The notes beneath the pieces were generated by a model that had not been told where the DNA came from, ran no database searches, and was given only the letters and a program-made list of their open reading frames with translations. A stretch of 64,000 nt of DNA, from NCBI RefSeq assembly GCF_000332135.1, contig NZ_KB235896.1, forward strand, positions 1,995,403 through 2,059,402. Reading direction: 5' to 3'. The position numbers and the translations under genes were made by a program. Of the stretch, positions 41,671 to 44,979 are shown piece after piece (the stretch's first letter is position 1; every line of letters starts with the position of its first letter). The DNA is from Anabaena sp. PCC 7108 (GTDB lineage: Bacteria > Cyanobacteriota > Cyanobacteriia > Cyanobacteriales > Nostocaceae).

Positions 41671-42309
41671 TTATGAATTGTCCTTACAGATGCTTTTACG
41701 GAACTTTGATATTAAATCTTTTGGTTTTTCGCCAGACAAAAGCAAACTTGCCAACAGAGTTAAATCTAAATCGGGTAAAAATTCACTTTTTGATATTTTC
41801 TCATACTTATCACCCTGCAGAAAATATAACGAAAATTGATGATTCTTCCAAAACCAAACTTCTGGTACACCCAAACCTTGATAAATTAATAAATCATCAA
41901 TTCCTCCACTGGTGACAACTACCTCAATAGCCAGATCAGGAACAGATTTTTCAGAATCAAAACAATAACATTCATCTGGTTCAATACCTCTAGCGGATGC
42001 TTCCCTTCTAAAAGTAGTTGATCCTAAAGGATAAAAATCAATATCTTTTTCTATAAAATAGGTTTCTAATAATAAAGCAATTAGCTTTTTATCAAACTCA
42101 TGGCGACGACTAGGAGACATTATTTCTAAAGTACCTTCTAAATATTTAAAGCGATAATGAGAAGTATTTTCAAATTGCTGTAACAGTGTCTCATATATAT
42201 TCCAGTTAATCCCATTAATCAGTAAAATTTGGTCAGAATCAACATTATCTAATGCTGATTGACTCGTTAATTCTTCCCAGCGACTAAATTTTTCTAGTAA
42301 ACCTAACAT
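41671..42309 (-). CDS. Uma2-family putative endonuclease
   Basis: About 212 residues from the ATG at 42309; a GTG at 42315 overlaps the stop of the preceding decayed gene. The PD-(D/E)XK core is KYLEGTLEIMSPSRRHE early, then VPDLAIEVVVTSGG, then YQGLGVPEVWFWKNHQFSLY. It is only distantly related to the Uma2 gene at 9620 and belongs to the subgroup with LEGTLEIMSPS-type starts. It is the last gene of a leftward cluster with two HEPN-like genes. Nuclease activity is predicted only. Confidence 0.85.
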   Translation of the reverse strand: MLGLLEKFSRWEELTSQSALDNVDSDQILLINGINWNIYETLLQQFENTSHYRFKYLEGTLEIMSPSRRHEFDKKLIALLLETYFIEKDIDFYPLGSTTFRREASARGIEPDECYCFDSEKSVPDLAIEVVVTSGGIDDLLIYQGLGVPEVWFWKNHQFSLYFLQGDKYEKISKSEFLPDLDLTLLASLLLSGEKPKDLISKFRKSICKDNS

Positions 42310-42311
42310 TG

Positions 42312-42593
42312 TCACTGCTCCAAACTTGCTTTAGTTTCAGATATAATTTCAGCAACTCGCCGATCTTTCTCTAATATATCAGTTTTATTACCAACATCCC
42401 AAAAAGGTTGTGCATCTGCTCTAGTTTGATGATAAAATTCCCTAAAATTATACTTACAAGCATTTTGATTTTCTTCTCAATGCTGCCACCATGCTACACA
42501 TTCAGTAAAATCTTCATCCTGTATCAGCTTAATTGTAAGATTTTGTCCTTCTGGTAAGATTGCTTTATCATTATTGTTAAATATAATTACTTG
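42312..42593 (-). pseudogene. Decayed small gene upstream of the Uma2 gene
   Basis: On the minus strand, one frame reads FNNNDKAILPEGQNLTIKL ... TECVAWWQH, a TGA stop at 42477-42479, then EENQNACKYNFREFYHQTRA ... PFWDVGNKTDILEKDRRVAE and a stop at 42312. Codons are gene-like on both sides of the internal stop, and no start codon remains at the front. The stop overlaps the start of the Uma2 gene, which points to an old coupled pair. It is about 90 codons; an antitoxin-like partner is possible but unproven. Confidence 0.6.
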
Positions 42594-43246
42594 TCATTTT
42601 TATCATCTGCCATAAAGAAGATAATTCTATCAATTATTAGAATTAAACGTAAGGAACTTGTAGCAGTACCAAAATTTGTTTGTATTCCGTGGCATATTCC
42701 ATGACGATTAAGTTTATTTTCTTCATCTATTTCTGAATTATATTCTTTATATAAATAAGCAATCACTTTGGGGAAATTTTCATTAAGTAAATCTACAAAT
42801 TTATTGTTCATCCAAATTTCTTCCTTCCATTTTCCTATTAATGAATTGACCGCTTTTTCTAGGCATGAGTCATCTAGGTTTTCCCAACAGATAACTCCTT
42901 CAAGATTAGCTTCTTTTGCTGCATCTTTTAATAATCCTTCTATTTGTGGTATTAGTGCGGATACACTCAAATAATATTTTTCTTTTAAATGGGCTGTTAT
43001 TCCTTCTTTTAATATAGAAAATCTTTTTTGTACGTTGCTATTTCTTTTATTTTTCCAATTATCTAAAGTTTCTTCAATTCTTGATGATACCATTAATTTA
43101 TCTGGTATTAGTTGCTGTTCATAGGCATCCTTTACAACTTGCGAAACCGTTTCACTGTCAAAAGTTGAGGTTGGTAAAATCCAATTGGGAGCAATGCTAT
43201 TTTCAATTTCTATAATCATAAGTTTCATCATTAATTTGTTAGACAC
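42587..43246 (-). CDS. HEPN-like protein, shorter paralogue
   Basis: About 219 residues from a GTG at 43246; the ATG at 43231 is an alternative start. The C-terminal part has SVSALIPQIEGLLKDAAKEA and, near the end, NRHGICHGIQTNFGTATSSL. R-H-G-I-C-H is an R-x4-H motif, the active-site signature of HEPN RNases, followed by a hydrophobic helix as in many LNRHxILHG proteins. It aligns along its whole length with the C-terminal half of the protein at 43264 and starts 17 bases after it, so the two are tandem paralogues in one transcript. RNase activity is inferred. Confidence 0.65.
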   Translation of the reverse strand: MSNKLMMKLMIIEIENSIAPNWILPTSTFDSETVSQVVKDAYEQQLIPDKLMVSSRIEETLDNWKNKRNSNVQKRFSILKEGITAHLKEKYYLSVSALIPQIEGLLKDAAKEANLEGVICWENLDDSCLEKAVNSLIGKWKEEIWMNNKFVDLLNENFPKVIAYLYKEYNSEIDEENKLNRHGICHGIQTNFGTATSSLRLILIIDRIIFFMADDKNDK

Positions 43247-43263
43247 ATTACAAAAACTATTTA

Positions 43264-44553
43264 TTAAATCATGAATGAGAAAATTAGTCTATCAAGAACA
43301 AGTATTAACTTTAAAGAATTTTTAGCATTACCAAAATTAGTTATTCCTCCATGACAAATACCTTTACGATATAATCCATCATTATTAGGTATTTCTCTAT
43401 CATCTTTGTACAAATTTTCCAGCATTTTAAATAACTGACTTAGCCTTAAAATATTTCCTATATTGTTAATGTGTTTTTGTCTCCAAATTAGTTCTAATGA
43501 TTTAATTGCTCTATCAATGTCACGATTTGATAAACCATCACAATCAGAAATTTTCTTCATATTAGTAATATTAGTATTTTTTTCTATTATATCTCTGATA
43601 ACGCCTTCTACTTGAGGAATTAAAGTTGAAACACTTAAGAAAAAATTGCTTTCGTTATGTGCTTCTAATGCTTCTTTCAGAATAGGATATCTATGTTGTA
43701 CATTATTAAACTCTTTCCAAGAAGATAAGGTTGTATTTATTCTGTCAACAGTCATTAATTTGTTAATAAAAAATTCGTCTATATCATTTTTATCTCTTCT
43801 GCTTTTTGATCTGATAAAATCATTCCATATTATTAAGAAATCTTCTAATTGAGAGGACTGTTCAGGAAAATATTCCATTACAGCCTCATAGTCTGTGGGC
43901 ATTTCTATAGTTGAAGTTGGTAATATCCATTCAAGTTCAATATCAAATTTTTTTTGTAATATTTCCTTTAATTCTTTTTCCAATCCATCTATCCAATCTA
44001 TTACTGATTTTGAAAAATTGCCTTTAGAAATCTTAAACTTTATTTCCGAATATTCTTTATAAATATTTTTAATATTATCACACTCTGTCCAACATTGTCG
44101 AATATCTGATCCTTTTATATTACCAAGATTTTCTAAATCAATTTTATCTTCTAATGCTTGAGATTTTACCTGTGTAATCTCAAATTTAACATTGTTTATT
44201 AAACTTGAAATTTTATTTCTATCCGTTTTACTAATTTTAGATATTTTCTTTATTTCAGGTATTTCCTTTATTTTTGTACATAAATACTTTAATTTTTCCA
44301 AATCTTCTAAATCAGATATTTCCTTTATTTCAGACATTTCCTTTATTTTTGTACATAGATCCTTTAATTTTTCCAAATCTTCTAAAGCTTTTTTCCAAAG
44401 TTCTAAAGCTTTTTCCAAATCTTTTAAATCAGATATTTCTTTTATTTTTTTAGATAGATAATTTAATCTTTCCAAAGATTCTAAAGCTTTTTCCCAAGGT
44501 TCTAAATGTTTTTCAAAATCTTTTAAAGTAGCATACCTTACTTGAAGATCCAT
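43264..44553 (-). CDS. HEPN-like protein with N-terminal coiled coil
   Basis: About 429 residues. Residues 1-110 are a coiled coil made of repeated units (LEKALELWKKALEDLEKLKD, LCTKIKEMSEIKEISDLEDL). The C-terminal 220 residues resemble the neighbouring protein: WILPTSTIEMPTD, SVSTLIPQVEGVIRDII and YRKGICHGGITNFGNAKNSL. R-K-G-I-C-H is again an R-x4-H HEPN-type motif. ATG at 44553 with AGGG about nine bases upstream. Only 22 bases separate it from the end of an hsdR remnant, which suggests it once belonged to a type I restriction operon. Confidence 0.65.
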   Translation of the reverse strand: MDLQVRYATLKDFEKHLEPWEKALESLERLNYLSKKIKEISDLKDLEKALELWKKALEDLEKLKDLCTKIKEMSEIKEISDLEDLEKLKYLCTKIKEIPEIKKISKISKTDRNKISSLINNVKFEITQVKSQALEDKIDLENLGNIKGSDIRQCWTECDNIKNIYKEYSEIKFKISKGNFSKSVIDWIDGLEKELKEILQKKFDIELEWILPTSTIEMPTDYEAVMEYFPEQSSQLEDFLIIWNDFIRSKSRRDKNDIDEFFINKLMTVDRINTTLSSWKEFNNVQHRYPILKEALEAHNESNFFLSVSTLIPQVEGVIRDIIEKNTNITNMKKISDCDGLSNRDIDRAIKSLELIWRQKHINNIGNILRLSQLFKMLENLYKDDREIPNNDGLYRKGICHGGITNFGNAKNSLKLILVLDRLIFSFMI

Positions 44554-44575: not shown

Positions 44576-44758
44576 TTATGCTGAATATAATAAACTTTGC
44601 AATTGATTCACAGCTTCCTTTAATTCCTGAACACCCCCAAATCGTTCAGCAATTTCCACTACATTACCATAATTATCAAACTCTCGATTAGCCTTAAAAG
44701 TCGTCGGAATATTAAACTCCTCAACCCCCTTCTCTGCATACTTATCCAAAAGTATTTC
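44576..44758 (-). pseudogene. 3' remnant of a type I restriction hsdR gene
   Basis: Sixty codons on the minus strand read EILLDKYAEKGVEEFNIPTT then FKANREFDNYGNVVEIAERF then GGVQELKEAVNQLQSLLYSA and a stop. This is the C-terminal end typical of EcoEI-type HsdR subunits (LDKYAE, GN-x-EI-x-FGG, AV-x-LQ-LLY). A stop at 44759-44761 closes the frame upstream and the rest of the gene is gone. It was the gene just before the HEPN pair. Confidence 0.75.
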
Positions 44759-44979
44759 TCAAATTGTCCTAGGAGAAAGCAAAAGAACTAGCGATAAACG
44801 CCTCTTAATCCCGAAAAGCCTGATTGACAAAACACCAAACCTTGATAATAGAATAAGAATATTTAAAAAATAGAAGGAATGCGTCAGTTTCAACACCCTT
44901 CCCGGAGAGACAAATAAAATGATACCGCAGTCAAATAACTTGACAAGCAACACAAAACTTAAATTTTTTGCTTAATTAA

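Follow-up and report, generated by a model that had tools for sequence, protein, structure and literature searches.

Tandem HEPN-like paralogues between type I restriction-modification relics in Anabaena sp. PCC 7108

A paralogous gene pair between hsdR and hsdM relics

We analysed a 64,000-nucleotide stretch of the genome of Anabaena sp. PCC 7108 (contig NZ_KB235896.1, positions 1,995,403 to 2,059,402; hereafter the window, whose own numbering is used below), focusing on two neighbouring minus-strand genes that a preliminary description of the DNA had regarded as tandem paralogues with a HEPN-like domain. Both open reading frames (ORFs) were present as described. The upstream gene (43264-44553, ATG start) encodes P0002, a protein of 429 amino acids (aa) with an N-terminal helical arm and a C-terminal HEPN-like domain, and the downstream gene (42587-43246, GTG start) encodes the 219-aa P0001, which consists of the HEPN-like domain only. 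They are separated by the 17 bases noted earlier (43247-43263). The C-terminal halves are indeed common to the two proteins (BLASTP, 34% identity over 235 columns, E 1e-33), and the motifs ILPTST, LSVS-LIPQ-EG, R[HK]GICHG and TNFG were all found in the sequence. According to sequence and alignment, the R-x4-H motif is RKGICHG in P0002 (R396/H401; 43348-43368, minus strand) and RHGICHG in P0001 (R181/H186; 42686-42706, minus strand). The arm of P0002, earlier taken for a repetitive coiled coil, is repetitive and helical: its repetitive part is encoded by tandem repeats at 44239-44527 (minus strand; 75-bp units, 2.0 copies, 93% match; 99-bp units, 2.0 copies, 85%), and the structure model of the arm contains several helices (block pLDDT, a per-residue confidence score, about 48-94). 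This repeat block is private to the window copy, being mostly gaps in the other nine rows of alignment A2, although the long and single relatives in that alignment have some arm. GC content was 23-29% across the pair and 40-43% farther out, and no third copy was found in the same genome at E up to 1.

The preliminary description did not recognise the pair as a known system and missed its surroundings. The pair is not an isolated unknown: its lineage is part of a type I restriction-modification (R-M) operon, which is a known kind of context for HEPN RNases (PMC3710099, excerpts). On one side of the pair lies an hsdR relic (44579-44770, minus strand) that covers the last 64 aa (734-797) of the intact HsdR of Anabaena sp. 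FACHB-1237 (locus L012) at 84% identity, with an in-frame stop just upstream. On the other side lies an hsdM relic (42378-42557, minus strand) that covers aa 416-477 of the L012 HsdM at 68% identity and also contains an in-frame stop. The order and strand are those of the intact L012 operon. We denote as X a gene of the pair's HEPN-like family in the hsdR-hsdM slot, and its context was surveyed with the L012 proteins HsdR (797 aa), X and HsdM (597 aa) as tblastn queries; Pfam confirmed the type I R and M subunits. Pieces of hsdR and/or hsdM adjoin X in 8 of 12 close cyanobacterial loci (window, L009, L010, L011, L012, L017, L045 and L048, the last by a single 21-aa match, E 6e-4), and none were found beside it in the other four (L013, L014, L015/L016 and L046). 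One locus, L012, has hsdR-X-hsdM intact. The count refers to the close clade, outside which fall a scrap in G078 and the wider-family loci L065-L069. By eye, no hsdS was recognised on the contig of L012/L044, whose end is about 1.2 kb past hsdM; at L067, a locus of a different family in the phylum, hsdM, hsdS and hsdR share their operon with a distant relative.

In the window genome, the cognate hsdR and hsdM were found as short pieces only. A second hsdR (786-aa frame, 42% identity) and hsdM (483-aa frame, 48%) of a different lineage, about 0.46 kb apart, are located roughly 0.25 Mb away (G000:C2:2283084-2287124, minus strand) and could act in trans. Beyond the relics, the neighbours of the pair are a Uma2 protein and an aldolase. 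The gene of the Uma2-family protein, a putative endonuclease (PF05685, E 1.5e-17; 41671-42315, minus strand), is directly downstream of the hsdM relic.

Assignment to the HEPN superfamily

The proposed HEPN-like identity was supported by the invariant R and H, by E-x3-[KR] in helix 2, by a profile match to DUF4209-HEPN and by a structural match to an archaeal HEPN. Loss of the R and H in homologues had been named in advance as a finding that would speak against the assignment, and the outcome favoured it: both residues are invariant in all 22 full-domain rows. This count omits the truncated genes L015/L016, L017, G469 and G426 and two G425 copies, which read RHGVCHG (short) and RKGLCHG (long), and it is biased to some extent, since R-x4-H was one of the two patterns of one search and contributes to the scores of the other searches. 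In a single protein, R-x4-H carries little weight because it is frequent in shuffled sequences (7.9% of P0001 shuffles and 19% of P0002 shuffles); conservation is what counts. The residue following the R is H in 15 rows, N in five and K in two (the long copies P0002 and L009a), so that the polar residue expected there of HEPN domains (mostly N, D or H) is found. The acidic residue (E or D) typical of HEPN helix 2 is present in 21 of 22 rows, and the full Ex3[KR] in 10, namely eight of the nine close cyanobacterial relatives, the Hymenobacter protein and G091.

Profile comparison with DUF4209 gave a probability of 82-91% with the nine cyanobacterial rows and 46% with all 22. These cropped comparisons supersede earlier values of 1.7% and 44%, which came from an uncropped, shallow set including the badly fitting Hymenobacter row. 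Comparison with PF05168 (11 sequences) gave no match and was without power; it also failed for DUF4209. In direct searches, PF13910 (DUF4209) had no match at E up to 1 in nine A3 and eight A4 members, and none of the models in the searched copies of Pfam, NCBIfam and PADLOC reached its cut-off or a strong score for the family. The best VIA-align match of the P0001 model was an archaeal HEPN; the predicted structures of the two proteins have pLDDT 65 and 70, with the P0001 motif in a loop of pLDDT <50. Structure matches of whole P0002 mostly paired its arm with generic helical bundles and long helices and were uninformative on the C-terminal domain. The absence of HEPN among them, like the lack of good Foldseek matches, is not evidence against HEPN. 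Weak single-member matches to DUF445, TPR_IF140_C and NADAR-DarT1 (one member, E 3.1e-4) in Pfam and to LmuB (0.0059), PDC-S12 (6.5e-5) and E2 (8.9e-5) in PADLOC were taken as chance or composition, and PDB sequence matches (best E 0.67 and 0.4) as chance.

Recurrence of the two-gene form and selection

A search for the two-gene arrangement, as the preliminary description had suggested, showed that it recurs, with pairs in three genomes (window, Nodularia L009 and G425). The 17-bp gap is present in two of the three. Pieces of hsdM lie downstream of the Nodularia pair, whose genes overlap when translation is taken to begin at the first ATG; in the G425 pair the long copy is broken and no hsd piece was seen. 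All three long copies carry RKG[IL]CHG, and all three short copies carry RHG[IV]CHG and have no arm. The five intact single genes (L010, L011, L012, L013 and L014) have RH and are distributed over both subfamilies resolved, with moderate support (90/83, 81/97), in a 17-row domain tree that was midpoint-rooted and drew a tool warning on long branches. In this tree, short copies are placed with single genes L010, L011 and G469, and long copies with L012, L013 and L014. The long copies fall on the same side of a branch (95/94) and neighbour L012, and the short copies do not form one resolved group. At the locus that holds the pair in the window, A. lutea and A. catenula have a single 395-aa gene of the short-copy subfamily, arm included.

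Ratios of nonsynonymous to synonymous substitution (dN/dS) were calculated by NG86 as pairwise values without tests. P0001 gave 0.45-0.58 against genes of its own subfamily and the other short pair copy. Among long copies, the ratio was 0.43 for P0002 versus Nodularia, 0.48 for Nodularia versus G425 and 0.85 for P0002 versus G425. For the single genes L010 and L011 it was 0.84 overall, with 1.49 in the arm and 0.44 in the C-terminal part, and 0.17 for their 64-codon hsdR relics.

A variable cargo slot between hsdR and hsdM

HsdM had a match at E up to 1e-50 in 73 of 211 family genomes, and the hsdR-hsdM junction was surveyed at the 19 loci (L113-L131) with at least 81% HsdM identity; a further partial match at 87% (G529) falls outside the survey. 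X occupies three junctions, where it is intact, truncated and fused to hsdM, and reduced to a 37-aa remnant, respectively. One junction holds a RiboL-PSP HEPN gene (PF18735, E 1.4e-22) and two hold DUF3644-like proteins with RNKIVH, whose E values of 5.5e-4 and 1e-3 are under the Pfam cut-off and which match PDC-S64 in PADLOC (E 4.9e-11 and 5.8e-14); DUF3644 is a HEPN domain according to PMC3710099 (excerpts). HEPN-type genes from three families are thus found in 6 of 19 junctions, two of them below the Pfam cut-off. The remaining contents are an uncharacterised two-gene cargo (three junctions; a 151+226-aa pair in L117, similar in L118 and L120), an uncharacterised 434-aa gene (L114), a 437-aa P-loop-like frame with weak matches and no hsdR within the 1.5 kb available (one junction), transposase-like genes (L124, Y1_Tnp; L129, by likeness) and an hsdR-hsdM chimera (one junction), and five junctions have no gene. 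The cargo carried in the junction slot varies within this type I R-M lineage, and the filling of the slot by other RNA-cutting families in related bacteria hints that it is a place for back-up weapons.

Interpretation of the pair

Given the homology, the invariant R and H, the DUF4209-HEPN profile link, the hsd context with its relics in the window, the recurrence of the pair and the grouping of the long copies, we lean towards the view that the pair represents tandem paralogues of a HEPN-superfamily RNase, carried as cargo in the hsdR-hsdM slot of a type I R-M operon and forming an R-M-linked back-up split into two subunits. RNase activity, its target and its regulation are predicted as follows. 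The C-terminal domain would dimerise and cut RNA (tRNA or mRNA, of host or phage) at the R-x4-H site, and the N-terminal helical arm may sense, or be held by, a partner, for which the R-M complex and a phage anti-restriction factor are candidates. Defeat of restriction would free the RNase from the R-M complex, and translation would stop, by analogy with PrrC beside EcoprrI (PMC3710099 and PMC2610378, excerpts). Labour might be divided such that the short, arm-less RH copy is the catalytic subunit and the long RK copy with the arm is a regulatory or hetero-dimeric subunit. A more specific version is tentative: that a two-subunit HEPN device arose by complementary loss, leaving an upstream copy with arm and RK and a downstream armless RH copy, in which the toxin's paralogue acts as sensor and brake and can outlive the parent R-M system, and that the junction slot recruited three HEPN families independently.

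The pair could instead be a self-contained, toxin-antitoxin-like unit in which the short copy is a toxin RNase, the long armed paralogue its inhibitor and the R-M neighbours incidental. This reading would agree with the hsd sequences, of which the window has short pieces only and G425 showed none, with the complementary differences (RK and arm versus RH without arm) in all three pairs found, with their 17-bp gaps or possible overlap, and with the grouping of the long copies. Nevertheless, we consider it unlikely: hsdM pieces still stand beside the Nodularia pair, and the RNase is not always accompanied by a long paralogue, because single-gene RH forms (L010-L014) exist in both subfamilies. It is likewise doubtful that both genes are functionless remnants of the R-M module, open by chance in the window genome. 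The surrounding hsdR and hsdM are relics, several relatives are truncated, split or chimeric, and the dN/dS values for P0002 versus the G425 long copy and for L010 versus L011 are 0.85 and 0.84, all of which suits decay; yet neither ORF of the pair is interrupted, the motifs of both are intact, and the ratios in the P0001 comparisons and for P0002 versus Nodularia indicate that constraint existed along those branches. We give very little credence to a non-catalytic helper, which would bind RNA, DNA or an R-M subunit and have a regulatory role in restriction but leave RNA uncut. Location inside R-M and BREX operons and the K after the R in long copies are compatible with such a role, and HEPN domains without the conserved residues are probably non-catalytic binders (PMC3710099, excerpts), but the same source ties catalysis to R-x4-6-H, and the R and H are invariant here.

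Comparison with known systems

An R-M-linked HEPN RNase is of a kind already known, because at least 16 HEPN clades had been tied to R-M systems by 2013 (PMC3710099, excerpts); HEPN RNases beside restriction systems were proposed there as back-up weapons, mainly by analogy with PrrC. What appears new is the family, its two-gene form, whose copies differ in complementary ways, and the sharing of the hsdR-hsdM slot, and among the literature matches listed we found no description of this family, slot or pair. One of the closest likenesses is to DUF4209/C6orf70-like HEPN (PF13910), listed as HEPN of R-M related operons in Table 1 of PMC3710099 (excerpts), which has cyanobacterial members and shares the helix 1-2 block A-x-x-x-G-x-F-x-x-S-x-x-LIPQIE-x-x-x-R and an R-x4-H followed by G ahead of the last helix; its proteins, however, mostly have R-N-x-[MI]-A-H-G and a different, longer N-terminal part. 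PrrC and RloC resemble the pair as HEPN RNases carried as type I R-M cargo. In particular, rloC is also known next to an hsdR relic, with the full hsd locus at another site (PMC2610378, excerpts), and this closely anticipates the state of the window; the same paper cites Miller et al. 2005 on restriction-linked ORFs. PrrC and RloC differ in their R-E-H triad, as opposed to the simple R-x4-H and hsdR-X-hsdM position here, and no ABC-ATPase domain, an N-terminal feature of PrrC/RloC, was among the Pfam matches of P0001, P0002 and 17 further members. RiboL-PSP-HEPN and DUF3644-like HEPN share the junction and R-M lineage (L115, L121 and L122) but are other families, present as single genes. Unlike in HEPN-MNT toxin-antitoxin systems, no minimal nucleotidyltransferase gene adjoins the pair in the window.

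In one type I R-M lineage, and in hosts of one family, a single slot is filled by X, by other genes of HEPN type or by unrelated genes, or is empty. This variation provides matched pairs for asking whether the R-M complex guards a cargo RNase, and the two-gene form is a natural case in which a putative toxin may be partnered by a paralogue of itself.

Distribution and distant relatives

The family is rare. The P0001 search matched 6 of 386 phylum genomes, including one chance match and one scrap; the A2 profile matched 13 of 217 family genomes, including two arm-only matches and one scrap; and the wider A5 profile matched 10 of 339 phylum genomes, one by a scrap. We set aside as chance or scrap G092 (E 7e-4, a longer protein), G429 (E 1e-4) and G418 (E 4e-4), which match in the arm part only, and a 23-29-aa piece in G078. 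Truncated, split or chimeric relatives include L017, L045, L048, L015/L016 and the G425 long copy.

The search of genome contigs gave nine loci, and no relatives were found among the viral contigs scanned. By tblastn of plasmids and phages, distant relatives were detected in Planococcus, Staphylococcus, Cytobacillus, Hymenobacter, Cupriavidus and SPbeta-group phages, including phi3T_86; Klebsiella plasmid matches of the Hymenobacter query covered the SEC-C part only and were rejected. Profiles tied the cyanobacterial rows to the distant members (99.7%), to G110/G104/G317 (95.8%) and to G091 (85.6%), and tied G214 to the distant members (95.5%; 9.4% to the cyanobacterial rows). All eight distant members match phrog_28904, which has no assigned function, at E up to 1 (best 1.2e-22; phi3T_86, 1e-6), and P0001 matches it weakly (E 1.4e-4); unlike the pair, the distant members are single genes of phages or plasmids and lack the cyanobacterial arm. 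The Hymenobacter plasmid relative has an N-terminal SEC-C motif and is located between pglX and pglZ in a BREX operon (L043:14001-14882, plus strand).

Further observations concern the surroundings of these genes. In phi3T, phi3T_86 (L039:3950-4663, plus strand) is three genes ahead of the arbitrium gene aimR and is a possible prophage-borne defence gene. The Cytobacillus relatives (L040:5540-6636 and L041:5516-6654, plus strand) directly follow a small helix-turn-helix regulator gene on both plasmids. In two genomes, the distant HEPN-like gene has near it ORFs (L067:5617-7216 and L066:3021-3761, both minus strand) that are about 250-275 aa long and contain the motifs YxDILGxK and IFSDNI; they have no Pfam match and look related and cyclase-like by eye only. 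Finally, a gene that by eye resembles a Panacea/DUF4065 antitoxin is the neighbour of L069:6310-7686 (minus strand), which encodes a more remote RNGILHG protein (459-aa frame).
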